The position numbers and the translations under genes were made by a program. The notes under the pieces are model-generated. The model did no database searches. It was not told the origin of the DNA and was given only the letters and a program-made list of their open reading frames with translations. From Pseudomonadota bacterium (GTDB lineage Bacteria > Pseudomonadota > Gammaproteobacteria > Xanthomonadales > Ahniellaceae): a stretch of 64,000 bases of DNA. Of the stretch, positions 11,076 to 28,373 are shown in pieces (position 1 is the stretch's first letter; every line of letters begins with the position of its first letter). Location of the stretch: the NCBI GenBank assembly GCA_022843465.1, contig JALHNO010000010.1:1-64000 (forward strand). The letters are read 5' to 3'.

Positions 11076-11588
11076 GTGCTGGATATGCTGAAACGCTGGA
11101 TCGGCCAGGAACCCGCGCAGATGCCGATGTCGCGCATGCCCGCCGGGGCACCAGCGCCGCGCGTGCCGCGCTACGACTCTTCCCTGATTGCCTCGCTCAA
11201 GCAGGATCATCACAGTCTGGTTGAACTCTTCGAGCAGGTCGGTCGGCTGGCCGAGCGCGGCCGGTTCCGCGAGTTGCCGGCCACCCTGGTGGCATTCAAG
11301 ACCGCGTTGGAAAGCCACGTGATTGCCGAAAACGTGCGCTTCTACAACTACGTCGAGAATAGCCTGGTCGGCGACGAGGAGAACCTCGCCCTGATCCGCA
11401 GTTTCCGCCGCGAGATGAATGTCATCGCGCGCAGCGTCGTCGACTTCGTCAAGAAGTACCAGCGTTATGACTTCGACGACAACACCAAGCAGGCCTTCCT
11501 GCGCGAATACGCTGCGGTGGGCGGGCTGCTGGCCCAGCGCATCCAGCGCGAGGAAGGCAATCTCTACCCGCTCTACCAGCAAGTGTAG
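11076..11588 (+). CDS. hemerythrin-domain protein
   Basis: A 170-residue protein. After a Met/Pro/Arg-rich leader of about 30 residues comes a four-helix hemerythrin-like domain with candidate iron ligands in KQDHHSLVELFEQ, ALESHVIAENVRFY and REEGNLYPLY. Such domains bind a di-iron or mono-iron centre and sense or carry O2, NO or redox state. The GTG start is supported by GAGGAG six bases upstream. The next gene, a DUF3050 protein of the haem-oxygenase-like fold, may also be metal dependent. Cytoplasmic. Confidence 0.75.
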   Translation: MLDMLKRWIGQEPAQMPMSRMPAGAPAPRVPRYDSSLIASLKQDHHSLVELFEQVGRLAERGRFRELPATLVAFKTALESHVIAENVRFYNYVENSLVGDEENLALIRSFRREMNVIARSVVDFVKKYQRYDFDDNTKQAFLREYAAVGGLLAQRIQREEGNLYPLYQQV

Positions 11589-11720
11589 GTGTAGGGCCGC
11601 CAGGCCCGGGCTGGTCCCAACGCGATTGAATACCGTGCACCCGCGTGCGCGCCGGCCAACTGTCGCTGTCGATTCATCGATTACCGCGTCACCAACCGAT
11701 CCGCACCCAGGAGCCCCACC

Positions 11721-12524
11721 ATGCACCAGCATCAGGATCAGATCCTCAATCAGGAAATCCTCCAGCTTCGCCAGTCGCTCAGCGCGCATGCCGTGTTCAA
11801 GGCGATCCGCGAGATCGCCGATCTGCGCCGCTTCATGCAGATCCACGTCTTTGCCGTCTGGGATTTCATGTCCCTGGTCAAGCGCCTGCAGCGCGACCTC
11901 ACCTGTGTACAGCTGCCGTGGCTGCCGCCCGAGGACCCGGCCGCGGCCAGACTGATCAATGACATCGTGCTCGCCGAAGAGAGCGATGTCGGCGCCGATG
12001 GCGCGGCCGCCAGTCATCTTGATCTCTATCTCGGGGCCATGCGCGAGGTCGGTGCTGACACCAGTGACTTCGAGACCTTCATTGCGCGGCTGACGCGCGG
12101 CGAAGATCCGGTGGTGGCGTTGTCGGCGGCGGAGATTCCGCCCTTCGTGCGCGCGTTCGTCGCCAGTACGCTGGAGACCGCACTCAAGGGCAGCACGCTG
12201 GATGTGATGGCGAGCTTCTTCTATGGCCGCGAGAACGTGATCCCCGACATGTTCCAGGGCCTGCTCGGTCACTGGGGTCTGTCGCGCAGTGCCGCGCCGC
12301 AGTTCGTGTATTACCTCGATCGCCATATCGAACTGGATGCCGACAGCCATGGACCGGCCGCGAGCGAGTTGATCACCCGGCAGCTGGCACGCCGGCCGTC
12401 GGCATTGAAGCGTACCCGTCAGGCCGCGATCGAGGCGCTGCGCGCACGCCAGCAGCTGTGGGACGGCAGTCTCGAGCATCTGCTGCGGCAGCGGCGCACG
12501 ACCGCGGCAGTCGCGACCGCCTGA
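11721..12524 (+). CDS. DUF3050 family protein (haem-oxygenase-like fold)
   Basis: A 267-residue soluble helical protein. The segments QIHVFAVWDFMSLVKRLQ near the N-terminus and YYLDRHIELDADSHGP near residue 210 match what I recall of the DUF3050 family. Its fold resembles haem-oxygenase-like di-iron proteins; His and Glu/Asp residues in those two segments are candidate ligands. Biochemical function unknown. AGGAG seven bases before the ATG gives a firm start. It follows a hemerythrin gene after 132 bases. Confidence 0.75.
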   Translation: MHQHQDQILNQEILQLRQSLSAHAVFKAIREIADLRRFMQIHVFAVWDFMSLVKRLQRDLTCVQLPWLPPEDPAAARLINDIVLAEESDVGADGAAASHLDLYLGAMREVGADTSDFETFIARLTRGEDPVVALSAAEIPPFVRAFVASTLETALKGSTLDVMASFFYGRENVIPDMFQGLLGHWGLSRSAAPQFVYYLDRHIELDADSHGPAASELITRQLARRPSALKRTRQAAIEALRARQQLWDGSLEHLLRQRRTTAAVATA

Positions 12525-12638: not shown

Positions 12639-13217
12639 GTGCCAGCACCTGCGCCCTCCGAAATCACCCAGTGGCTCGACGCCGCCCGCGCCGGCGACGC
12701 CGATGCCTATGATCGCGTCGTCCAGGCGCTCTACCAGGATCTGCGCCGGATGGCCGGCGCCTTGGCGCGTGGCGGCACGCTCAATCCGACTGGGCTGGTG
12801 CACGAGGTCTATCTCAAACTTTCTGCCAATGGTTCGATTCCGCTGAACCGGCAACACTTCATGCTGTTGTCGGCGCGCGCGATGCGCCAGGTCCTGTCCA
12901 ATCACGCCCGCGACCACATCGCGCTCAAGCGCGGCGGTGGCGCGTTGCACGTCGATGCCGATGGCATCGAATCGCTTGCGGGGCAGATCGAGTCCGAGGC
13001 CGAGCAGCTGATCGGTCTGGACCAGTGCATGGACGCGCTCGGCCAGATCGACCCGACCATGGTGCAGCTCGTCGAATGCCGTGTGTTTGCCGGCTATACC
13101 GAGACCGAAGCAGCCGAGGCCACCGGCCTTTCGCTGCGCTCCGCGCAGCGACTGTACGCCGATGCACGCCAGCATCTGGCGCGGATCTGGGACTGCGGCG
13201 TCGGTGCCGCTTCCTGA
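12639..13217 (+). CDS. ECF sigma factor of the TIGR02999 (Sig-70_X6) type
   Basis: A 192-residue sigma-70-family factor: region 2 around DADAYDRVVQALYQDLRRMAG and LVHEVYLKL, and region 4 around DPTMVQLVECRVFAGYTETE with the helix-turn-helix TEAAEATGLSLRSAQRLY. This subfamily is usually encoded next to a Ser/Thr kinase, as here: the kinase reading frame begins before this gene ends. No anti-sigma gene is present, so phosphorylation or protein contact by the kinase may regulate it (inference). The start is GTG with only a weak upstream TTAAG. Confidence 0.88.
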   Translation: MPAPAPSEITQWLDAARAGDADAYDRVVQALYQDLRRMAGALARGGTLNPTGLVHEVYLKLSANGSIPLNRQHFMLLSARAMRQVLSNHARDHIALKRGGGALHVDADGIESLAGQIESEAEQLIGLDQCMDALGQIDPTMVQLVECRVFAGYTETEAAEATGLSLRSAQRLYADARQHLARIWDCGVGAAS

Positions 13218-15876
13218 CTGGTTGCTCGCCGAGGGTGGCGTCCTGCGCAGTGCGCTGGCCGCCAATCTGCTTGGTCATGGCGTGCCCGAGCTCGCCGCCG
13301 GCGATCGTTTCGGCGCCTTTGAGCTGCGCCGTGAAATCGGCCGCGGCGGTCAGGCGGCGGTGTTTCTGGCCGATCGCGTTGATGGTGCCTATCGGCAACA
13401 GGTCGCCATCAAGATCGCGCTCGGCCGTGGCGGAAGTCGCGACTTCGCGCGCGAACGCCAGTTGCTGGCCGAGCTCAAGCATCCCCATCTTGCCCGTCTG
13501 ATCGATGGCGGCGATCAGGGCGGTCGGCTCTGGTTCGCGATGGACCATGTCGACGGCCCGCCGATCGACCGCTACTGCAGTCTGCATCGACTTGAGCGCC
13601 GCGCCAGGATCGAGCTGTTTCTGCAGGTCTGCATCGCGGTCAGCTTTGCCCATCAGCGCCTGCTGGTGCACCGTGACATCAAGCCCAGCAACGTGCTGGT
13701 CGATAGCGACGGCTCACCCAAGCTGCTGGATTTCGGCATCGCGGCCCTGCTCACCGCTGATGCCAGCGCGCAGGCCGGTCGCGCCTACACGCCGGCCTAC
13801 GCCAGTCCCGAGCAGTTGGCTGGCGACGTCGTCGGTCCGGGCTCGGACCAATACCAGCTGGCCCTGCTATTGCAGCGCATGCTGCACGCGGCTGCAGCCG
13901 AACCTGGTCAACCGCCGACACGCACGCTGGCCACCCAGGTCGCGGCCGAGCCGACGGCGCTGGTGGCGGCACCGGTAGCCCAGGATCTGGGCACGGAACT
14001 GCAGGCGATTCTGGCGCGTGCGTCGGCAGCTGAGGTCGCTGATCGCTACGGGTCGGTGGTTGAATTTGCCGATGATCTGCAGCGTTATCTGCAGCATCGT
14101 CCGGTGCGCGCCCTGCGCGCGACACCGCGCTATGTCACCCGCAAACTGCTGCGCCGGCATCCCTGGCGGGTGCTGACGGCGGTCGCCGCCACGCTGGCGC
14201 TGATCGCCCTGGTGACCGGGTTCACGCTGCGTCTGGCCGAGCAGCGCGATATCAGCCTCGCCGAGGCGGCGCGTGCCGAGGCGATCAAGAATTTTCTGAT
14301 CGGCATGTTTCGCGATGGCGATCCCACGCGCGGCAGCGATCCTGATCTGTCGGCGCGTGCGCTGATCCAGTCTGGCGTGGTGCGCGTCGAATCCGATCAG
14401 ACCCTGCCCACCGATGCCCGTCGCGAACTGCTGCATCTGCTGGTGGATATCCAACTGCGCCTGGGCGACGGCGAACATGCCGGCGCCCTGCTGGAGCGAA
14501 TCGATCCCGCGCAGATCGATCCTGCAATCCTTGCCGAAATGCAGGGCAGGCTCGCTGACATTCGCGGACAGCCCGACGCCGCGGTACTTCACTACCAGCA
14601 GGCCATTGCGCATGCCGACTCACCCGAGCGCCAGCTGCGCCTCGTACGCGCCGAAAACGATGCCGGCAGGACGGCAGCATCCGCAGAACGGCTGGCACGC
14701 CTGCTGAAAAGGGAGGCCGAACTTCCCGATGCCCTGGCGGCGAGTGCCTGGATCGCCCGGGGCGTGCTGCATTGGCGCGATGGCAAGCCCGAGCAGGCGC
14801 TGCGCGACTATGATCGCGCGCTGGCCCGCGCCGATCGTTCCGAAGTCAGCATTTCGCCGGTTGCCGCCCTGATCAATCGCGGCCTTGCGTTGAATGATCT
14901 CGGTCGCTTCGACGAGGCGCTCGCCGACTACGAACGGGCCGAGGCCGGGCTGGCGCGCTACCCTAACTTCCGGCATCAGGGGTTGATCCTGCAGAACCGT
15001 GGCATGAGTCTGCTCCGCAATGGCCAGGTAGAGACTGCGCGCGATGTCTGGCTGAAGCTGCTCGATCTGGTCGATGGTGGCGTCAATCCGGGCATCGAGG
15101 CATCCACCGTACACAATCTTGCCTCCGCGGCCGACCGCCTCGGCGATCCGGTTGGCGCTATCGAGTATTCGCTGCGCGCCGAGCGCCTGCGTCGACAACT
15201 GGGCGACCTGCCCAGCGCGCTGTCGTCGATGATCAATGTCGCGGTGAAGCTGCACACGGTCGACCTCGCCGAAGAAGGCATCCGGATGGCGGAGGCAGCG
15301 GTGGTCGCTGCCACTGCCATTGATCGCCCCGATCTGGCCGCGCGTGCGCGTCTGGCCGCCGTCAACAATCGCTGCGCGCTTGCGCATCCGGATTGCATCG
15401 CCGAACTCGAAGCCTCTGCGGCCGAGTTTGCCGCCACCGGCAATCGCGTCAAGTTGCTCGACACGCTCGAGAGCATCGTCCAGCTTGGGCTTGAGCGAGG
15501 CGATCAGCTGGCGCAAACGCGGGCCGCCGAGGCGATGGCAGCTGAAATCGGCGAACTGCAGGATGCCGAGTTGCAGGATCGGCTGGCCGCTGTGCGGGCG
15601 TTTGCCAGTCGCGACCTCGATGCATTGCGGCAGCGTGCCGGGCGTTCGAGCGAGGCGCGTCGTGCGCTGGTCCTGCTCGCGCTCGAACGCTGGGACATCC
15701 GGGAAGCGCGTGCGCAACTCACCGAACTTGCCGAGCAGGATTCGGTCCGCTACTGGGCCCTGCGCGAGCAGGTTGCCGACGCAGCCCGGGATCACGCCGA
15801 TCTGGTGCATGCGCGAGCACAGCGCGCGGCCCTGCGCACCCGTGTCCAGTCCTTGCTGGCACAGACGCCCCATTGA
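13204..15876 (+). CDS. transmembrane Ser/Thr protein kinase with TPR tail (sigma-linked)
   Basis: About 890 residues. Kinase domain about 35-300: glycine loop IGRGGQAAVF, Lys70 in VAIK, catalytic Asp158 in HRDIKPSN, Asp176 in DFG, activation segment ending TPAYASPEQL. One membrane segment at about 322-343 (VLTAVAATLALIALVTGF) leads to a C-terminal half of tetratricopeptide-type helices (ALRDYDRALARADRSE, RGLALNDLGRFDEALADYERAE), probably periplasmic. The GTG at 13204, overlapping the sigma gene by 14 bases, fits translational coupling; an ATG at 13162 is the alternative. Likely target or partner: the adjacent ECF sigma factor. Confidence 0.9.
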   Translation: MPLPDWLLAEGGVLRSALAANLLGHGVPELAAGDRFGAFELRREIGRGGQAAVFLADRVDGAYRQQVAIKIALGRGGSRDFARERQLLAELKHPHLARLIDGGDQGGRLWFAMDHVDGPPIDRYCSLHRLERRARIELFLQVCIAVSFAHQRLLVHRDIKPSNVLVDSDGSPKLLDFGIAALLTADASAQAGRAYTPAYASPEQLAGDVVGPGSDQYQLALLLQRMLHAAAAEPGQPPTRTLATQVAAEPTALVAAPVAQDLGTELQAILARASAAEVADRYGSVVEFADDLQRYLQHRPVRALRATPRYVTRKLLRRHPWRVLTAVAATLALIALVTGFTLRLAEQRDISLAEAARAEAIKNFLIGMFRDGDPTRGSDPDLSARALIQSGVVRVESDQTLPTDARRELLHLLVDIQLRLGDGEHAGALLERIDPAQIDPAILAEMQGRLADIRGQPDAAVLHYQQAIAHADSPERQLRLVRAENDAGRTAASAERLARLLKREAELPDALAASAWIARGVLHWRDGKPEQALRDYDRALARADRSEVSISPVAALINRGLALNDLGRFDEALADYERAEAGLARYPNFRHQGLILQNRGMSLLRNGQVETARDVWLKLLDLVDGGVNPGIEASTVHNLASAADRLGDPVGAIEYSLRAERLRRQLGDLPSALSSMINVAVKLHTVDLAEEGIRMAEAAVVAATAIDRPDLAARARLAAVNNRCALAHPDCIAELEASAAEFAATGNRVKLLDTLESIVQLGLERGDQLAQTRAAEAMAAEIGELQDAELQDRLAAVRAFASRDLDALRQRAGRSSEARRALVLLALERWDIREARAQLTELAEQDSVRYWALREQVADAARDHADLVHARAQRAALRTRVQSLLAQTPH

Positions 15877-15922: not shown

Positions 15923-17086
15923 TCAGGCCGCGCTGGCCACCAGCAGGGCACCCTGCTTGCGTCTGGCCTGCCAGAATGGCTGATCGTGCCAGCGCTGTTC
16001 GCTGGCATAGAGCGTCTGCCGCAGGCGCAGATAATCGCGGTGGCGATCTTCCAGTCCGGCGGCATAGTCGGAGAAGTCCGCGCCGCGATCCTGCAGTCGA
16101 TGCACGATCGCCTCGGCTGCCGCGATGCCCGTCGCCAACGCCTTGTGAATGCCCTGTGCAGCAATCGGGTCATAGCTGATCGCACTGTCGCCGACAGCCA
16201 GCCAGTCGACGCCGACACTGCGATCGAGATGAAAGCAGGGCGCCGCCCAGGGCTGCAGTCCCTCGCTGGTCAGCCTGCTGCCGTGCAGTCGCTCCCCCAT
16301 ATGGCGGGTGCGCGCCAGATGCGCAAACCACGAACCCAGCGACGACAGCGCATGCAGGCGCGCGGTGCTCGAGTCGCTGGTCACCGAGACGATGGCCTGG
16401 TCGGCATTGATCCGCGCGCAGTACCACCAGCCATAGGGCGCCGCCTCCAGCAGGGTGCGTTGATCGATTCTGGAATCCGCCTTCAGATCGAAGACACCGG
16501 CGATGCAGACCAGACGATCATCGTAGATGCGGCGCGCGCCGACGGCATGGGTAAAGACACCGGCCTGACCGGAGGCATCGACCACGATGCGCGCCGACAG
16601 CGTCTGCTCGCGTTGCTCGTCATCGCGCAGACTGATCTGGTAACCGCCGTCGACAAAGGCGACGGCATCGCGCACACGCCAACCCTCGTAGACTTCGACG
16701 TCGCGCTCGGCGGCCTGCGCGGCGAGCAGCGCATCGAAGCGATTGCGTTCGACATGCCAGCCATGACCGTGGATGTTCAGCGCAAAATCATTGAAACCGA
16801 GTTCGTCGTCGCCCCAACTCGCGCAACTGCCCCAGCAGGGTTGATGCTGCGCGGCGAGGAAGACCGGCAGCACGCCGAGTTGATGAAACAGTGCGCGGCT
16901 GTCCGGCGGCAGGCTTTCACCAATGCGAAAACTGTCGAAGTGGCTGGTCTCGACCATCACGATACGGGCCGACCGATGATCCGCTGCCAGCAGGTCCGCG
17001 AGGCGCAGCGCGGTTGCGCTGCCGGCCGGACCGGCGCCGACGATCAGTACATCGCAGCTGCTCGGTGGCATCGTCTCACTCAACAT
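15923..17086 (-). CDS. LodB-like FAD-dependent oxidoreductase (quinone cofactor maturation)
   Basis: A flavoprotein of about 387 residues: N-terminal Rossmann motif VLIVGAGPAGSATALRL, central FRIGESLPP, and the second FAD motif VGDSAISYDPIAAQGIHKAL, as in halogenase/monooxygenase-like FAD enzymes. It directly follows a LodA/GoxA-type oxidase gene. In known systems the LodB/GoxB partner is needed to build the cysteine tryptophylquinone in the oxidase, and that role is inferred from the pairing. The ATG at 17086 is chosen, 13 bases beyond the upstream stop; an in-frame GTG at 17095 and ATG at 17071 are alternatives. Confidence 0.8.
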   Translation of the reverse strand: MLSETMPPSSCDVLIVGAGPAGSATALRLADLLAADHRSARIVMVETSHFDSFRIGESLPPDSRALFHQLGVLPVFLAAQHQPCWGSCASWGDDELGFNDFALNIHGHGWHVERNRFDALLAAQAAERDVEVYEGWRVRDAVAFVDGGYQISLRDDEQREQTLSARIVVDASGQAGVFTHAVGARRIYDDRLVCIAGVFDLKADSRIDQRTLLEAAPYGWWYCARINADQAIVSVTSDSSTARLHALSSLGSWFAHLARTRHMGERLHGSRLTSEGLQPWAAPCFHLDRSVGVDWLAVGDSAISYDPIAAQGIHKALATGIAAAEAIVHRLQDRGADFSDYAAGLEDRHRDYLRLRQTLYASEQRWHDQPFWQARRKQGALLVASAA

Positions 17087-17099
17087 GATCTGCACCGAC

Positions 17100-19244
17100 C
17101 TAGCCCGTCGGTGTCAGCGTGTCGGTGACCTGGTTGGGCCAGGGCACCACGGTGTCGCTGATGTCAGACATCAGGCTCGCTACTTCCAGATACAGGCTCT
17201 GATCGAAACTGTAGCCGTCGATGGCGGCGCCCTGGATCACCACGCCGATGTTCTGCCACTGCTTGACCATATCCTCGCGAATCTGGAAGCGGCCGACATT
17301 CTGCGCCGGGTAGACCGCGCCGTCCGACGTGGCCGTCGCGCGCGTACCCTCGCCGCGCACCGAATAGCGCTGGGTCGGCAGCTTGCCATTGTTCGCCTTC
17401 AGGTCCGGCCAGCTGTACACCGAGACCGGACGTTGTGCCGGCCACGACCAGAACAGCGTGGTGTTGCGGCCATCCCCGGTCTGACTGGTGTTGCTGATGC
17501 TGCCACCCGGGTTCGGCGAGGGCAGGTGGGTGGCGCAGGAGTTGTAGTCGGTATGCCAGGGCAGGGCCATGAACTTGCAGAGATCGCCGGGTTCGACCCG
17601 CGAGCCACTGCGCTCGGGGATATAGCCGACACCGAGGAAGGGCTTGGCCTGCACCGCCTTGCTGTAGTCAAGCACGGCGGCATTGAGCCGGAAGGGGCCG
17701 ATGCTGGGATCCTTCCAGTTGCTGTCGTAGAACACCGGATCGCGCACGATGAAGGTCAGGTCGATGCCAGGACTGAAGCGGCCACCCAGACAGTTGGTCA
17801 GGGCATCGCGATCCAGCAGTTCGCCTGCGGTCAGCGGTTTGTCGGGCGTTGCGGTGTACCGATTGGCGAACCACTGGTTGAGAAAGAAATACTGGGTCTG
17901 GGTCAGGGTCAGAAACGCCGCGCCGGTGTCGCCCAGTGCCAAGGGCATCATCGGCGAACCGGTCTGGAATTGATTGTCGCTCGGGTACGGACTGCGGATG
18001 AACGACTTGACGTTGAGGAAGCTTGCCGGATTGCTGCTGGCATCGAGGTTGTCCAGGCGCGCATGCGAACCGATCGCGACCTGGTTCAGTCCGGTGGTGA
18101 ACATCTGCAGATGCGCGCTGCGGAATATCGGAAAGATGTCGTCGGAAAAGGAAGGTTTGAACGCGGTATTGAAACCGCTGGCATTGCCGGGATCGGGCGG
18201 ACCGCTGTACAGCGCCGGATCGAGTCCGAAATTGCGCACCCAGGTGTCGTAGACCTCATCCCACAGCGACACCACGTTGCGGATCTGCGGTGCATAGGCC
18301 GGGTCGGTCGACACCAGCCAGGCGCTACCGGGAATCGCGAGTTCGCTGCCATCGCTGAAAATCAGCACGGCATTGACTGGACCATCGGCGGTATCGTCGA
18401 ACCAGCCATCGTTGTTGACATCATCGGTCAGCGGGAACGGTCCGCCGTGCGAGCGTGAGTCGCGGTTTTCATCCTTGAACCAGGCGCTCGCGGTGCCCTC
18501 GCCACCGATCACGATCAGGCGCCCCTGGGCATCGGTCTCGATCGCGCCGAGCTGGCTGACCACCACGCCGGAAGGGTTGTACAGGCGGCTGAAATGGTCG
18601 CCCGGATACGAGGTCGGATAATTCGGCAGTGGCTGCACCTTGCCGCCGCTGAAAAAGCTCGGTGCGCTGGACTTGTCGAATTTGATGCGCTCTGCCGAGG
18701 CGCCCCGGATGACGCGCGGGCCGGCATCGATGACCAGATCGGTCAGGCGCTGCGGATCGGCGGGGTCGCTGGTGCCTGCGTAGTTCAGATTGCGCAGCGG
18801 TGGCAGTGCGCCATTGTCATAGGCTGACATGCTGCTGAAGCTGCCCGGTGCCACGCTCTCCTGGAGGATCCAGCAATTGGATTTCTTGTTGGCGAGGTGC
18901 ACGGTCCAGACGATGTCCTTGACTGTCTTGCCACCGACACTGCTGCCGATCAGGACTTCCTGCACGGTGCCGGTGTAGGGATATTGCCCGGCGAGGGTGG
19001 GATCGTTGTAGAGATACAGCCGAAAGCGCTGTGCCTGCCGCTTCAGGGCACCCGCGCCGTCGCGCAGATCGCCATCGGAAATCGGTGTGTTCTCGGTGCC
19101 CGGCCGGATCGGCAAGCCGCCAGTAACCGCGCTGCCCGGCTGATTCAGGCCGGCCGAGGATTCCGGCGCCAGATAGTAGTCGGTGCTGTTGCCGACGCGG
19201 GCCAGGCCGATGGCGGGATGGATGCGGATGACGGGATTGGACAT
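17100..19244 (-). CDS. LodA/GoxA-family CTQ-dependent amino acid oxidase
   Basis: A 714-residue protein whose N-terminus IRIHPAIGLARVGNS is the hallmark of the LodA/GoxA family, whose members oxidise free amino acids such as lysine or glycine to give aldehyde/oxoacid, ammonia and H2O2 using cysteine tryptophylquinone. Family-like blocks include CLGGRFSPGIDL (Cys485), MALPWHTDYNSC (Trp564, Cys570) and FWSWPAQRP (Trp599, Trp601); the cross-linked pair should come from these, most likely Cys485 and Trp564, but I cannot align to decide. No classical signal peptide. GGAGA precedes the ATG. Substrate unknown. H2O2-producing relatives can be antibacterial. Confidence 0.88.
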   Translation of the reverse strand: MSNPVIRIHPAIGLARVGNSTDYYLAPESSAGLNQPGSAVTGGLPIRPGTENTPISDGDLRDGAGALKRQAQRFRLYLYNDPTLAGQYPYTGTVQEVLIGSSVGGKTVKDIVWTVHLANKKSNCWILQESVAPGSFSSMSAYDNGALPPLRNLNYAGTSDPADPQRLTDLVIDAGPRVIRGASAERIKFDKSSAPSFFSGGKVQPLPNYPTSYPGDHFSRLYNPSGVVVSQLGAIETDAQGRLIVIGGEGTASAWFKDENRDSRSHGGPFPLTDDVNNDGWFDDTADGPVNAVLIFSDGSELAIPGSAWLVSTDPAYAPQIRNVVSLWDEVYDTWVRNFGLDPALYSGPPDPGNASGFNTAFKPSFSDDIFPIFRSAHLQMFTTGLNQVAIGSHARLDNLDASSNPASFLNVKSFIRSPYPSDNQFQTGSPMMPLALGDTGAAFLTLTQTQYFFLNQWFANRYTATPDKPLTAGELLDRDALTNCLGGRFSPGIDLTFIVRDPVFYDSNWKDPSIGPFRLNAAVLDYSKAVQAKPFLGVGYIPERSGSRVEPGDLCKFMALPWHTDYNSCATHLPSPNPGGSISNTSQTGDGRNTTLFWSWPAQRPVSVYSWPDLKANNGKLPTQRYSVRGEGTRATATSDGAVYPAQNVGRFQIREDMVKQWQNIGVVIQGAAIDGYSFDQSLYLEVASLMSDISDTVVPWPNQVTDTLTPTG

Positions 19245-19301
19245 GAAGTTCTCCGTGCAGGGGATGCGGACGCCGAACGAGTGGTTGCTCGCGGGTGTCG
19301 C

Positions 19302-20783
19302 CTACTTGCCCTGGTTGTCGAGGAAGGCGCGCAGGATGATGTGGCTCAGGCTGATATTGGTTCCCTGCATTGGCGGGATCTTCGGATCAGGCGGGTTGAA
19401 CATCATCGTGTTGTGGCAGGAGAAGCAGTTGTTCTGGCTCTGCACCTGCTGATTGAAGGTCTCGATCACGGCATTGCCGAGCAGGCGCGAGCCGACCAGG
19501 GTGTCCTGCAGGGTCGAGTTCGGAACGATCACGCCGGTCGTCCACTCGGCGCCGACCTCGAAGTAATTTTTCAGCAGACTGCCCGTTTCGAGCTGCTGCT
19601 GCACCGAGGCATTGAGTTCGGTGATCGCGGCGAGATTGGGCAGATCATTGCCCTTGTCGGTAGTGCCGGCAACCATGCCGAACGGGAACTGCCGGCAGAC
19701 CTGGGTCACCGGCGACAGTGTCTGTGTCGCCTCGTCAAGCTTGAGTACGGCCGAGTTCAGCTGATTGCAGTCGATCGCCTTGGTGTTGGCGGTGTAGAAC
19801 AGGAAACCCTCGCTGCTGACCGGCTTGTCAGTCGACTGCTCGGGCGCGTAGTCGGGCGCATTCCTGCGGTACTCGAAGGTGGCCCAGATCGCTTCCGGAT
19901 GACCCTTGACCCAGCCGACGATATGGAAACCCACAAAGGCGACCTTGACCTGCAGCGGCCGGGTCGGATCGGTGGTAATGCTGCCATCGCGGTTGACCAG
20001 AGTGTCGACCACGCCATCGCGGACGATCAGTTCGCTGACATCCTCGCCGGGGCTGACAATTTTCCAGGCCGCCTTCAGCTCGACATCGCCAGTCTTGAAC
20101 TCGACCGTGGCCGGCATGCTGTTGAGCACGCTGGGCAGGTTCCAGCCCTGGCTTTCGATATCGTTGAACATGGCCTGGTTGACATGCTGCGAGTAGTAGA
20201 TCGCGCGTCCCTGGTGATCGACCAGGATGCCGCCCTGGCCGGCCTGGTTGATCTCGTCGAGCGAGTCCGCTGCGCGATCGGTCTTGCTGGTGCGCGGACG
20301 CAGTTGCAAGGCCGCGCCTGGGGTATCGCTGCCCTGTCCGCTGATCACTTCAGCCGCAGTGGGGAACGATTCGAAGCGCATGCGACCGCTGTCATCGAGC
20401 TGGGTCAGCCACAGCATCGACTGCCAGGCCCACTGATGGAACGCGCAGAAACTGTTGAAGTCGACATTGGGATCGGGTTCCGGAGTCTGCGTGGACGGAA
20501 ACCATGTCGCCGGCGCGGTGCAGCTCGGCGGTGCTGCCGCAGCCAGGGCCAGACTCTTGGCCGCCGCGGTCGGCGCCGCCGCTGGCGGGGCGGTGGCGGA
20601 ATCGGCAGCCGGTTTTGGCTGCGACTCCGGCGCCGGTGCCGAGCAAGCCACCAGCGCCATCATCATCGTCGCCGTCAGCAGCGAACCGACCGGACTCCAG
20701 GCTGCCCTGAGGTTCAAGTCCTGGCCGCGCCTTGCCGCAGCGCGAGGCGCCGGATGCGTGCTGGGCGTTCTGATCATCCGCAT
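19302..20783 (-). CDS. lipoprotein with one C-type haem motif, LodA-linked
   Basis: A 493-residue protein with a long N-terminal region ending in a lipobox (ALVAC, Cys47), an Ala/Pro-rich linker, a large unrecognised domain (conserved-looking FCAFHQWAWQSMLWLTQ, FHIVGWVKGHPEAIWATFEY) and one CFSCH haem-attachment motif at 453-457 near the C-terminus. It should therefore sit as a haem lipoprotein in the periplasm. AGGAG six bases before the ATG. It lies 57 bases upstream of the LodA-like gene on the same strand, so it probably belongs to the same transcript and may accept electrons from, or be oxidised together with, that enzyme (inference). No named family recognised. Confidence 0.75.
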   Translation of the reverse strand: MRMIRTPSTHPAPRAAARRGQDLNLRAAWSPVGSLLTATMMMALVACSAPAPESQPKPAADSATAPPAAAPTAAAKSLALAAAAPPSCTAPATWFPSTQTPEPDPNVDFNSFCAFHQWAWQSMLWLTQLDDSGRMRFESFPTAAEVISGQGSDTPGAALQLRPRTSKTDRAADSLDEINQAGQGGILVDHQGRAIYYSQHVNQAMFNDIESQGWNLPSVLNSMPATVEFKTGDVELKAAWKIVSPGEDVSELIVRDGVVDTLVNRDGSITTDPTRPLQVKVAFVGFHIVGWVKGHPEAIWATFEYRRNAPDYAPEQSTDKPVSSEGFLFYTANTKAIDCNQLNSAVLKLDEATQTLSPVTQVCRQFPFGMVAGTTDKGNDLPNLAAITELNASVQQQLETGSLLKNYFEVGAEWTTGVIVPNSTLQDTLVGSRLLGNAVIETFNQQVQSQNNCFSCHNTMMFNPPDPKIPPMQGTNISLSHIILRAFLDNQGK

Positions 20784-20946: not shown

Positions 20947-21019
20947 GTGATGACTGTTTGAACTTTGTTGTCGCGGCCTGATGAGCGCGCTGCGTCGCCA
21001 TGCTTCGGCGCTTCGCTCC

Positions 21020-21690
21020 CTTCTCCCGCCTGCGGGAGAAGGGCCGGGGATGAGGGCGAGGCTGCGATTCCGCTCGATCGACGCCGGAACCGTAGGATGT
21101 GCTGAGGCCGCAGGCCGAAGCGCATCAATTCAGGCAGATTCGACAATGTTCATCCTCGTCGAACTCGTCACGGACAAGGTAGGTCGGGTCCCCGCAGGGA
21201 ACCCGACGTCGCGGACTCGAACGCCTCAGCGGACTCGAACGCCTCAGAAATTTGCGGATTCTTCGAACTGGTGACGAAGATCCAGGGCCAGCTTGCTCCG
21301 CAAGCGCCGTCGCTGCGCGATGCCACTGAACTTTCACCGCTTGCGCTTTGCCCCCTTCGCCCGCTTGCGGGAGAAGGGCCGGGGATGAGGGCGTCGCTGT
21401 ATTCCGCTCGATCGACGCCGGAATCGTAGGATGTGCTGAGGCCGCAGGCCGAAGCGCATCAATTCAGGCAGATTCGACAATGTTCATCCTCGTCGAACTC
21501 GTCACGGACTTAGGTAGGTCGGGTCCCCGCAGGGAACCCGACGTCGCGGATTCGAACGCCTCAGAAACTTGCGGATTCTTCGAACTGGTGACGAAGATCC
21601 AGGGCCAGCTTGCTCCGCATGCGTCATCGCTGCGCGATGCCACTGAGCTTTCACCGCTTGCGCTTTGCCCCCTTCGCCCGCTTGCGGGAG
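21020..21690 (+). repeat. direct duplication of about 335 bp
   Basis: Two long direct copies, beginning near 21041 and 21376 at the sequence GGGCCGGGGATGAGGGCG, share the same module order: CGATCGACGCCGGAA, TAGGATGTGCTGAGGCCGCA, ATGTTCATCCTCGTCGAACT, GGTCGGGTCCCCGCAGGGAA, TTCGAACTGGTGACGAAGAT. They differ by small substitutions and by a short duplication of GCGGACTCGAACGCCTCA in the first copy. Confidence 0.8.
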
Positions 21691-21960
21691 AAGGGCCGGG
21701 GATGAGGGCGACGTTGCGACAACGCTCACTTGCCACGAAAATCCAGGGCCAGCTTGCTCCGCATGCGTCATCGCTGCGCGATGCCACTGAACTTTCACCG
21801 CTTGCGCTTTGCCCCCTTCGCCCGCTTGCGGGAGAAGGGCCGGGGATGAGGGCGACGTTGCGACAACGCTCACTTGCCACGAAAATCCAGAGCCAGCTTG
21901 CTCCGCAAGCGCCGTCGCTGCGCGCCGACACAGAGCTTTCACTCGCTTGCGCGAGCGAGT
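21593..21960 (+). repeat. 144-bp tandem repeat, two and a half copies
   Basis: Units begin at 21593, 21737 and 21881 (exact 144-base spacing) with GAA(G/A)ATCCAG(G/A)GCCAGC, pass through CGCTTGCGGGAGAAGGGCCG and end ACAACGCTCACTTGCCAC. The third unit is partial and merges into the left arm of the long inverted repeat. Confidence 0.85.
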
Positions 21961-22784
21961 CACTTTCTCTTGCGTGGCCAAGAGAAAGTAACCAACGGAG
22001 AAGGCCATCCCACGCTGGTTTCGTTCCGAATCACGCTTCGCAAACCATCCCTGGTGGACGGCGCCCGGCCCGGCATCCATGCCGGGCGTTCGACACCATT
22101 CGACATGCGATTCAACGCATGTCGAGAGCATGGTGTCTCACCCCTCCGGGTTCGTGCTCGGTGCTCGCTGGTCGGCGGGCGCACATCCGGCAACTGCTCC
22201 TGCGTTGCTCTACCTCGGGCATCCATGCCCTCGCCCTGTGCGATCGCCGACCGGCCGCATCCATGCGGCCGCACTGCGTGCTGATCGCGACCACCGATCA
22301 CCGGCGCTGAGGGGCCCCTTGGGAAAAGAAGCGCGCTCCCGGCGCGCAGAAGCTCAGGAGCAGAGCGAGGCAGCCGGGATCTCGGCTTAGACTTTGGCTT
22401 TGGCTTTGGCTTCTGCGTGCAGGAAGCGCGCGCTCTTCAACGGGGTCCCTCTGCGCCGGTGATCGGTGGACGGTGAGCCCGAAGGGTGAGCGACAGGATG
22501 TCGCTCAGGCGACGCTTGCACATGGACGTGCGATCGTCGACCGCGGCCGCCGAGCACGTACCTGGAGGGGTGAGACACCATGCTTTCGACATGCGTTGAA
22601 TCGCATGTCGAATGGTGTCGAACGCCCGGCATGGATGCCGGGCCGGGCGCCGTCCACCAGGGACGGTTTGCGAAGCGCGATGGGGAACGAAACCAGCGTG
22701 GGGTGGCCTTCTCCGTTGGTTACTTTCTCTTGGCCACGCAAGAAAAGGTGACTCGCTCGCGTAAGCGAGTGAAAGCTCTGTGGC
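21927..22784. repeat. long inverted repeat with arms of about 220 bp
   Basis: The left arm 21927-22148 and right arm 22564-22784 are near-perfect reverse complements: ACTTTCTCTTGCGTGGCCA against TGGCCACGCAAGAAAAGGT, and TTCGACACCATTCGACATGC against GCATGTCGAATGGTGTCGAA. A second inner pair (22291-22337 and 22424-22469, CCACCGATCACCGGCGC against GCGCCGGTGATCGGTGG) flanks a centre holding three TTTGGC units (22393-22412). The 415-base interior carries no recognisable gene, so there is no transposase within the arms. Confidence 0.85.
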
Positions 22785-22832
22785 ATCGCAGAGCGATGAC
22801 GCATGCGAAGCATGCTGGCCCTGGATCCTCGT

Positions 22833-22868
22833 GACGAGTTCGACGAGTTCGACGAGTTCGACGAGTTC
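22833..22868 (+). repeat. four perfect copies of a 9-bp tandem repeat
   Basis: GACGAGTTC repeated four times without error. The unit recalls the single CTCGTCGAACTCGTCACGGA stretch in the left part of the island, read in reverse, suggesting local slippage expansion. Confidence 0.9.
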
Positions 22869-22962
22869 GAACAGTACCAAGCTTCCGACAATTGATGCGC
22901 TTCGGCCTGCGGCCTCAGCACATCCTACGATTCCGCCGTCCATCGAGTGGAATCGCAGCCTC

Positions 22963-23158
22963 GCCCTCATCCCCGACCCTTCTCCCGCAAGCGGGCGAAG
23001 GGGGCAAAGCTGCCCTCATCCCCGGCCCTTCTCCCGCAAGCGGGCGAAGGGGGCAAAGCTGCCCTCATCCCCGGCCCTGCTCCCGCAGGCGGGCGAAGGG
23101 GGCAAGGCTGCCCTCATCCCCGGCGTTTCTCCCGCGCGCGGGAGAAGGGAGCAGGACG
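22963..23158. repeat. 49-bp tandem repeat, four copies
   Basis: Units start at 22963, 23012, 23061 and 23110 (exact 49-base spacing). Each is GCCCTCATCCCCGGCC followed by a CTTCTCCCGC / GCGGGCGAAG hairpin and a GGGGGCAAAGCT tail; the fourth is the most diverged. It is the reverse-complement version of the module in the left half of the island and ends a few bases before the stop codon of the histidine kinase gene, where a series of hairpins could act in transcript termination. Confidence 0.9.
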
Positions 23159-25595: not shown

Positions 25596-25736
25596 CGCCT
25601 CATTGTAGGGCCTGCCCGACGATCGCAACCCTTGCCGGCGTGCGCCGCTACGGCGAGCTGACCGTGCGTGGCGCTCGACCGACCCAGGCGCGACCGGTTT
25701 GTGGCATGGTGTACTGAACACCGCAGGATGGAATGC

Positions 25737-28373
25737 ATGGCACAGGATGATCGCGCCGCCGCGCTGGCGGCCTTGTTGCGGGAACTGCCGGATCTGGGCG
25801 TGGCCCAGCGCCAGGCACGCATCGACGAATTGCGCGCGCGCGACCCGGCGCTGGCGGCCGAACTGGTCGCGGCGCTGGCGGCACAGGCTACCGTCCTGCA
25901 CCCGGAGGCGCCGGCCCTGGATGTGGCCGCGCTCAATCTCGATCGGGTGGGCGAATTCCGCGTGCTCTCGCTGATCGGCCAGGGCGGCATGGGCGCGGTA
26001 TTCCTCGCCGAACAGGACAATCCGCGACGGCGCGTGGCGCTCAAGCTGATGCGCCAGGGTGGCGCCGACCAGGAAGCCGCCCGCCGCTTCCGACGCGAAG
26101 GGGCGGCCCTCGCCCTGCTCGATCACCCCGGCATCGCCCGGGTCTATGCCGCTGGTGTCGAACCGCATCCCCTGGGTGGCTTGCCATATCTGGCGATGGA
26201 ATACGTCGACGGCGTCAGTCTGATCGAGCACGCTGCTGCCCAGGGCCTGGACGCATCGGCGCGGCTGCGACTGATGGTGGGCATCTGTCATGCGGTACAG
26301 CATGCCCATCAGCGCGGTGTCGTGCATCGTGATCTGAAGCCGGCAAACATAATGGTGGATGCCGCCGGCCAGTCGCGCATTCTCGATTTCGGCATTGCCC
26401 GACTGCTCGACGACCCCGAGCACGGCACCCGGTTGACCGAGATCGGCCAGATCGTCGGCACCTTGCCCTACATGAGTCCCGAGCAACTCAATGGCGACAG
26501 CGCAAGCATCGATACCCGCGCCGATGTCTACGCACTCGGCGTCATCCTGTACGAACTGCTCAGCGGCAAGCGCCCGCGCGAATTCGAGCCGGGCACCTCG
26601 CTGATGCAGGCGGTCGCGCGCGCGATGCGCCAGCCGCTGGTGCCGTTGGCCGCGGTCAACTCCGACTGCGCCGGCGACCTCGATACGCTGGCGATGAAGG
26701 CGCTGGCCGAAGATCCCGGGCAACGCTACGCCTCGGCCTCGGAACTGGCCGCCGATATCGAGCGCTTCCTCAATCATCAGCCGATCCTGGCGCGGCCACC
26801 GAGCGCCTGGTACGTACTGCAGAAATTCTCCCGCCGGCATCGTGCCCTGGTGACCGCATCGGTGCTTGGCCTGGCTGCGTTGATCCTCAGCACGGTGATT
26901 GCCTTCAATGCCGCCTGGCGCGAACGCGATGCGCGTGAAGCAGCGGAACGCAGCGCAGCCATCGCGACCTCGGTGCAGGGCTTCATGAACGAGATGTTCC
27001 AGGCGGCGATGCCAGAAGCCGCGCTCGGCCGCGAGATCACGGTGCGCGAGGTCGTCGATCAGGCCAGTCTGCGCCTGCAGAATGCGCCGCCGGATGACCC
27101 GGTGGTGGCGGCCGAATCGGGCGTCGCACTGAGTGCGGTGAATCTGGCCCTGGGGCGAATTGATCAGGCCGGCAGCCTGATCGATGGCGCCATCAGCGTC
27201 CTGATCGCGCAGGGCACCAGCGCGGAGAAGCTGCGCTTCGAGGCCGAGATCCTGCGCCTGCAGATCATCGCGGCGCGTGAAGCCGATGCCAAGGCCGAGC
27301 AGGGCGCCCGCGATCTTCTGCAGGAAATCCAGCAGAGCCAGGGTGCGCACAGCATCCTGGCGCTTGAGGCGGCAACCCTGCTGGCCGACATCCTGCTGCG
27401 CCAGAGCAAGTTCAAGGAGGCGATCGACAGCTACCACGCTGTACTGGGGACGCCACTTGATGCACTGCCCGATGAGCACCGGGTGCGCGAGGGCGCCCTG
27501 GCCAATCTGGCGGTGGCCCTGCGCGGCAGTGGTGATCTGCCGGCGGCGGTAGCGGTGCTGACGGCGCTTGAGCAGCAGGTCAGTCGTCGGCGCGGGCCCG
27601 AGCATCCGGCCACCCTCAGCGTGCTGAACAATCTGGCCATCGCGGTGCAGAACAGTGGCGACCGCGATACCGCGCTGGCGCTCTATGACCGTGCCCACGC
27701 CGGCCGCAGCAAGGTGCTGGGTGCCAGTCATCCGGACACTCTCAATGTGCTGCAGAACCGCGCCACACTGTTGATCGAGAGCGGCAAGCCGGCCGCGGCG
27801 GAGCCGGTGCTGCGGCAACTGCTGGCCACGCTGGTGGAGAGCCGGCAGAAGAATCATCCGGCGGTTCTGGTGGCGATGAACTCGCTGGCCTATGCCCTGG
27901 AAGATATGGGCAAGCTCGACGAGGCCGAGCAGCTTTATCGCGACACCCTGGCGATCCAGACCGAGTCGAAGTCGACCTATTCGGAATCCTTCAGCACCCG
28001 CAACAATCTGGCGATGCTGCTGATGCGCAAGGGCGAATTGCGTGATGCCGAGCGCGAGTTCGTCGCCGTGCTCGACGCCACCACCGAGCATCTCGGGGCC
28101 GAGCATCCCTACGTCAATATCTTCGGCAACAACTACGGCGAATGCCTGACCCGACTGGGCCGCTATGCCGAGGCCGAACGCATGCTGCTCAATACCCATG
28201 CGCGACTGGCCAAGGTATTGCCGCCCGCGCATGGCCGGCTGGTCAAGGCACGCGCGCGTCTGGCTGAGCTCTACGATGCCATGAAGTCACCCGAGCGCGC
28301 CGCTGACTGGCGGCGACCGCCGCCGAGTGCCGAGCCGGCGTCACCGGCAACCGCCGAGGCTGCGCCGGAATAA
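25737..28373 (+). CDS. transmembrane Ser/Thr protein kinase with TPR tail
   Basis: An 878-residue protein. A helical N-terminal segment (1-65) precedes the kinase domain (about 70-345): IGQGGMGAVFLAE, Lys103 in VALKLM, Asp199 in HRDLKPANIMV, Asp217 in DFG, GTLPYMSPEQL. One membrane segment at about 370-392 (LVTASVLGLAALILSTVIAF) is followed by kinesin-light-chain-like TPR units (HPATLSVLNNLAIAVQNSGD, HPDTLNVLQNRATLLIESGK). It resembles the sigma-linked kinase at 13204 in plan, but no sigma factor gene adjoins it. The ATG at 25737 has AGGA eight bases upstream; ATG 25728 is possible. Confidence 0.92.
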   Translation: MAQDDRAAALAALLRELPDLGVAQRQARIDELRARDPALAAELVAALAAQATVLHPEAPALDVAALNLDRVGEFRVLSLIGQGGMGAVFLAEQDNPRRRVALKLMRQGGADQEAARRFRREGAALALLDHPGIARVYAAGVEPHPLGGLPYLAMEYVDGVSLIEHAAAQGLDASARLRLMVGICHAVQHAHQRGVVHRDLKPANIMVDAAGQSRILDFGIARLLDDPEHGTRLTEIGQIVGTLPYMSPEQLNGDSASIDTRADVYALGVILYELLSGKRPREFEPGTSLMQAVARAMRQPLVPLAAVNSDCAGDLDTLAMKALAEDPGQRYASASELAADIERFLNHQPILARPPSAWYVLQKFSRRHRALVTASVLGLAALILSTVIAFNAAWRERDAREAAERSAAIATSVQGFMNEMFQAAMPEAALGREITVREVVDQASLRLQNAPPDDPVVAAESGVALSAVNLALGRIDQAGSLIDGAISVLIAQGTSAEKLRFEAEILRLQIIAAREADAKAEQGARDLLQEIQQSQGAHSILALEAATLLADILLRQSKFKEAIDSYHAVLGTPLDALPDEHRVREGALANLAVALRGSGDLPAAVAVLTALEQQVSRRRGPEHPATLSVLNNLAIAVQNSGDRDTALALYDRAHAGRSKVLGASHPDTLNVLQNRATLLIESGKPAAAEPVLRQLLATLVESRQKNHPAVLVAMNSLAYALEDMGKLDEAEQLYRDTLAIQTESKSTYSESFSTRNNLAMLLMRKGELRDAEREFVAVLDATTEHLGAEHPYVNIFGNNYGECLTRLGRYAEAERMLLNTHARLAKVLPPAHGRLVKARARLAELYDAMKSPERAADWRRPPPSAEPASPATAEAAPE

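Follow-up and report, generated by a model that had tools for sequence, protein, structure and literature searches.

A haem lipoprotein gene beside lodA and lodB

The window, that is, the whole stretch of 64,000 nucleotides that was analysed, carries three consecutive genes on its minus strand, in the order haem lipoprotein (20783-19302), LodA-like oxidase (19244-17100) and LodB-like flavoprotein (17095-15923). The first gene of this trio encodes an exported monohaem protein of 493 residues, and 57 bases separate it from the gene of the 714-residue LodA-like protein. This is followed after only 4 bases by the gene of the LodB-like protein, which has 390 residues and a GTG start. Shine–Dalgarno-like sequences, AGGAG and GGAG, lie ahead of the starts of the haem lipoprotein and LodA-like genes, and a consensus scan revealed no convincing promoter or terminator at the trio. 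The earlier note had proposed that a dedicated lipoprotein with one CxxCH motif is linked to the oxidase genes on the same strand, and this description holds in its length, gap and coordinates.

Several other elements surround the trio. Directly upstream, positions 20980-23153 are densely filled with direct and inverted repeats of an element whose cores resemble 'TTCTCCCGC..GCGGGAGAAGGG'; they form 144-bp and 49-bp arrays and 297-nt inverted arms. An ECF sigma factor and a Ser/Thr kinase–TPR protein are encoded just past lodB (12639-15876), and a second kinase–TPR gene is located beyond the repeats (25668-28373). At 11076-12524, on the strand opposite to lodB and 3-5 kb away from it, there are genes for a hemerythrin and a DUF3050 protein, the latter being weakly similar to PF14518, an iron-containing redox domain which elsewhere forms part of some LodA fusion proteins.

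The LodA-like protein contains both domains of its family, with scores of 168 bits (E=4e-49) for Pfam LodA_N and 125.6 bits (E=2e-36) for LodA_C, against cut-offs of 26.3 and 25. Among solved structures, LodA (2ymw, 3weu) is nearest, followed by GoxA. The NCBIfam equivalog models give 215.7 and 146.1 bits, well under the cut-offs of 600 for the lysine oxidase LodA and 750 for the glycine oxidase GoxA; therefore, the substrate cannot be assigned from the family. The residues of the CTQ cofactor were placed by aligning a profile of 20 homologues to 2ymw. In this alignment, Cys570 (17535-17537) corresponds to C516 of LodA and Trp601 (17442-17444) to W581, the two residues that form CTQ in LodA (PMC4417212), and both are invariant in the 20 sequences. 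The tryptophan of 'VKQWQNIG', also considered for this role, was ruled out by the same alignment, which gives W601. Beside the CTQ tryptophan, the clade of the window's LodA has WSWP where LodA has WWP, which represents an insertion of one residue. Judged by its domains and by this alignment, the protein belongs to the LodA family, as the earlier note had suspected, and has lost neither of the two CTQ residues. No signal peptide is evident in it, and it is the only LodA in the whole 5.18 Mb genome.

The flavoprotein was likewise correctly recognized. Its top NCBIfam match is the LodB maturase model (3e-73, below the curated cut-off of that model), it falls into the Pfam Trp_halogenase family, and its gene adjoins that of the LodA-like protein, so that it can be regarded as a putative FAD-dependent maturase. 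The lodA-lodB pair of Marinomonas mediterranea (group I) and the goxA-goxB pair (group II) share with the window both LodA domains, the CTQ cysteine and tryptophan, and an adjacent LodB-type flavoprotein. The window differs from these systems in the extra haem gene upstream, in WSWP instead of WWP, and in scores far below the equivalog cut-offs.

Conservation of the trio

The haem gene-lodA-lodB trio is conserved. When the LodA protein was scanned against genome contigs, 80 loci were obtained. In Kordiimonas, Xanthomonas, Eilatimonas, Saccharospirillum, a Verrucomicrobia MAG and a Flavobacteriales MAG, lodA is immediately preceded by the haem gene; in Pseudophaeobacter and Roseibium, the haem gene also precedes lodA, at a short distance. 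Xanthomonas sacchari and Pseudoalteromonas xiamenensis carry trios on plasmids, and a further genome of the same class has one as well (locus L100). In the NCBI annotation of the plasmids, the LodA is named 'LodA/GoxA family CTQ-dependent oxidase', and the haem protein is a 'hypothetical protein'. The LodA proteins of the trios form one clade of 14 members (SH-aLRT 100), in which the haem gene is adjacent in 10, at most 0.4 kb upstream in 2 and absent in 2. The 12 members with an upstream haem gene come from three phyla, being Alpha- and Gammaproteobacteria, Verrucomicrobiota and Bacteroidota. The co-occurrence of the haem gene with lodA in other genomes, on which the earlier note had made its proposal depend, is thus observed.

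Iterated profiles detected relatives of the haem protein in other LodA clades as well. In one clade from Bacteroidota, the haem gene of all 13 members comes right behind lodB, about 1.6 kb past lodA, and the operons also contain the tyrosinase gene and the gene for a 140-residue protein known from LodA group ID. The operons of group ID encode a tyrosinase, a multicopper oxidase and a 140-residue protein (PMC4417212), and relatives of the haem family are present there, too. In operons of this type, the haem gene is found on the downstream side of lodB or past the tyrosinase gene, whereas the window has neither the tyrosinase nor the small gene. Among 274 genomes of the class, the haem family was found in 5 and LodA in 8; both occur in 2, and in those 2 they are adjoining. 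Since both families are so rare in the class, a chance linkage is unlikely.

Some loci depart from the common pattern. One clade member devoid of a P460-type gene has, on the other strand (L014:9388-10632), a neighbour encoding a 415-residue protein in which CxxCH occurs twice and for which Pfam gives no match; this protein is a possible substitute partner. Roseibium carries a tandem pair of lodA-like genes followed by lodB (L019:5974-9943), and the trio of Pseudophaeobacter leonis (L017:4488-9472) has its three genes broken up into several frames, through decay or sequencing error. A mutual exclusion between the haem gene and a catalase domain fused to LodA was also considered but found no support, as nine long LodA proteins lacking the haem gene show no catalase domain in Pfam.

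Fold and haem pocket of the lipoprotein

The haem protein begins with a signal peptide and a lipobox (together 20643-20783); the lipobox is LVAC (residues 44-47), with Cys47 as the predicted site of lipid attachment. The haem c attachment motif, CFSCH, is placed near the other end (residues 453-457; 19413-19427). The name lipoprotein, given in the earlier note, suits the window's protein; it does not suit the whole family, as inspection of the alignment shows a Sec-type signal of the ordinary kind in some homologues. The main domain had been called unfamiliar, and the sequence taken singly indeed has zero matches in Pfam, NCBIfam and the PDB, with NCBIfam containing no family for it. Structure prediction, on the other hand, suggests that the domain most likely has the fold of cytochromes P460 and c'-beta, extended by about 250 residues of insertions.

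This assignment is supported by two predicted structures. The AlphaFold2 model of the window's protein, built with the family alignment, has a pTM of 0.86. When Foldseek candidates were realigned with VIA-align, P460/c'-beta structures took all of the top 10 places (Z 5.6-6.3), and the next unrelated structure reached Z 3.3. A second model, of a family member from Aquimarina (pTM 0.84), gave P460/c'-beta structures in all of the top 16 places (Z 5.3-6.5; next 3.3), with identities of 12-16%. The matches of the two models cover 124-143 residues of targets that are 135-161 residues long. Both models contain the five-stranded antiparallel sheet of P460, with the single CxxCH after the sheet, near the C-terminus, and this five-stranded fold has been described as exclusive to the two families (PMC11928373). 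The models are built without haem, they draw on one pool of sequences and are hence not fully independent, and their Z scores are all below 8. The idea of a P460 relationship had been set down ahead of the structure search, from weak hints in the sequence.

The resemblance might also be a chance likeness between folds based on beta-sheets, the haem domain being unrelated to P460. Such an explanation would agree with Z scores under 8, with the result that Foldseek alone found nothing at E<0.001 for the haem model, and with the Pfam P460 model PF16694, which matched only 4 of 27 family members, weakly (best E 0.016). It is nevertheless highly improbable, as the models of two distant members both place only P460/c'-beta structures on top, with a gap of 2 Z, and the comparison of profiles points the same way. 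With the untrimmed haem family, hhalign found a match to P460 that was confined to CxxCH. With insertions removed, the core matched a profile of 30 P460-family proteins with P=2.6e-5, better than all of 100 column-shuffled controls, the best of which gave 0.0038; the trimming was chosen from the model, which favours the score, and the controls were trimmed alike. In addition, the aligned lysine and CxxCH are among the invariant residues of the family.

The P460/c'-beta fold gives a predicted place to the conserved residues of the pocket. K148, W151, H198 and CxxCH are among the residues invariant in 27 homologues (numbering of the model; 89 is added for the full-length protein). The first of these, Lys237 in the full-length protein (20073-20075), lies in the motif TGDVELKAAWK, and the profile alignment puts it at the position of the lysine that is cross-linked to haem in P460, namely Lys70 of NeP460. 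His287 (19923-19925), in the motif VGFH, takes the position of the distal carboxylate, Glu96 of NeP460. The numbering of NeP460 was checked on 2je2 and with Table 2 of PMC11928373. Thus, the motif GxVxxK sets the invariant lysine on Lys70, and [IV]GxH sets the invariant histidine on Glu96. As the block around His287 gives no significant profile match by itself, the matching of histidine to glutamate rests on the alignment of the whole core and on the shared motif [IV]G-x-[EH]. Lysine is found at the first position in 27 of 27 homologues, and in the larger set of 54, which includes a few genes fetched twice, the lysine, the histidine and CxxCH are kept in every member, whatever the operon. His287 is a candidate for a distal acid/base or a sixth ligand of haem.

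With the cytochromes P460 of Nitrosomonas and Methylococcus, the haem protein shares the predicted fold, the C-terminal CxxCH and the lysine at the cross-link position. It differs from them in its size (about 400 residues with insertions, compared to about 150), in an invariant histidine in place of the distal glutamate or aspartate, and in its linkage with oxidases. With cytochrome c'-beta it has the predicted fold and the haem motif in common, but its family has lysine in 54 of 54 members where c'-beta has phenylalanine or methionine (PMC11928373 Table 2). Accordingly, the haem protein was filed as a putative member of the P460/c'-beta superfamily which is neither P460 proper, because the distal carboxylate is absent, nor c'-beta, because the lysine is present.

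Possible roles of the haem partner

What the haem protein does can be approached from the chemistry of its neighbours and of its predicted relatives. In our preferred explanation, LodB would build the CTQ cofactor in LodA, and LodA would then oxidize an amino acid or amine, passing the electrons to O2 with formation of H2O2. From its place in the envelope, to which it is anchored, the haem partner would bind this H2O2 and react with it. The first reaction may forge the partner's own lysine–haem cross-link, as in P460, and in later reactions peroxide might be consumed or used to oxidize another compound. GMC oxidoreductases encoded in other operons would be served likewise by the same haem family. 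Taken as a whole, this account is held tentatively, at a little under an even chance. The more specific proposal, that H2O2 from a CTQ oxidase, itself an enzyme with a protein-derived cofactor, forges the lysine–haem link in a new, His-distal class of P460-type proteins and that both proteins then act as a pair, should be considered unlikely.

A partner that reacts with peroxide is preferred because of published precedents. The characterized LodA and GoxA produce H2O2, and many LodA-like proteins are fused to a haem domain of the catalase fold (PMC4417212 and its Table 3, respectively). The lysine–haem cross-linking of P460 is described as requiring peroxide, and a peroxidase-like activity was reported for a c'-beta (PMC11928373). 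On the opposite side, the lysine of NeP460 suppresses peroxidase activity (PMC11928373), and no oxidase gene adjoins those of several members of the haem family.

A further argument against the peroxide reading comes from paralogous operons. Three further members of the haem family are encoded in the window's own genome. One of them (C11) is followed by a gene for a 166-residue protein and then by one for a GMC oxidoreductase, which most resembles FAD glucose and fructose dehydrogenases. The same order of haem protein, small subunit and GMC enzyme occurs in three taxa, namely this genome (L091:9238-13078), another genome of the class (L097:6107-9806) and Azospirillum (L138:6554-10395), where the products are annotated as 'cytochrome C', 'sorbitol dehydrogenase' and 'GMC'. 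The small subunits of the latter two match the FAD-SLDH family PF12318, but the match leaves out the first 26-35 positions of the profile, the expected place of a signal. The 166-residue protein has no Pfam match and is 33-40% identical to these two copies. No signal peptides are evident in the GMC protein or in the small subunit. In the FAD-dependent fructose, sorbitol and glucose dehydrogenases, a cytochrome subunit with three haems acts as the electron acceptor, and the haem protein of the GMC operons stands in the slot of this cytochrome, which favours electron transfer.

Hence, the haem protein might be the direct electron acceptor of the CTQ enzymes and of the GMC enzymes. The LodA clade would then consist of dehydrogenases, from which the lipoprotein would relay electrons to the respiratory chain, perhaps as a bis-His cytochrome using His287, as the invariant distal histidine might supply a sixth ligand. 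It is also consistent with this possibility that the characterized LodA and GoxA are remote from the clade. In contrast to the FAD dehydrogenase complexes with their three haem motifs, the haem protein contains a single one, the small subunit is devoid of the signal region of PF12318, and the enzyme in the window depends on CTQ, not on FAD. Moreover, the haem protein is exported, while no signal peptide is evident in LodA, the GMC enzyme or the small subunit; this point is not decisive, because LodA occurs extracellularly although it has no classical signal. The haems of P460 and c'-beta bind ligands, and their potentials, from -205 to -424 mV, are low for such a task (PMC11928373). Direct electron acceptance is a close rival of the peroxide reading, although rather doubtful in itself, and peroxide handling seems to fit the P460 fold somewhat better than electron transfer does. 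Both a transfer of electrons to the respiratory chain and a role in peroxide handling had been suggested in the earlier note.

The haem protein could, alternatively, be an enzyme or sensor for something else, such as NO or compounds resembling hydroxylamine, being co-regulated with the oxidases and not chemically coupled to them. Oxidation of NH2OH is known from P460, NO has been proposed as a ligand of c'-beta (PMC11928373), and some family members stand alone, with no obvious partner, or near other genes. For example, in two genomes of different families (L090, G000:C2:37000-56990; L099, G152:C2:258000-277900), genes for a haem paralogue, a PRTase_3 protein and an M15 peptidase lie beside those for the hydrogenase large subunit, HypF and HypD of a NiFe-hydrogenase cluster. 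An independent role of this kind is improbable, given that close linkage with LodA recurs in two or more LodA clades and that the haem family is also linked to GMC enzymes. Furthermore, the distal glutamate or aspartate which the NH2OH-oxidizing P460s need for that reaction (PMC11928373) is replaced by histidine.

Members of the LodA family have been known, to our knowledge, as oxidases whose sole helper protein is a maturase, and some of them kill competitors with H2O2. In the open-access papers searched, no report linking P460 with LodA in a relevant way was found, and the main text of the main LodA survey (PMC4417212) makes no mention of a cytochrome or lipoprotein. It seems that part of the LodA family works with a dedicated haem partner which is not described in the literature searched. 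As this unannotated partner occurs in several LodA clades and beside GMC enzymes, a good part of the family may work in a paired manner. The small P460/c'-beta superfamily would gain a large new branch, with a pocket of lysine and distal histidine that is not among the characterized ones. Finally, the linkage makes it testable whether peroxide from a neighbouring enzyme may be the driver of the P460 cross-link in cells.
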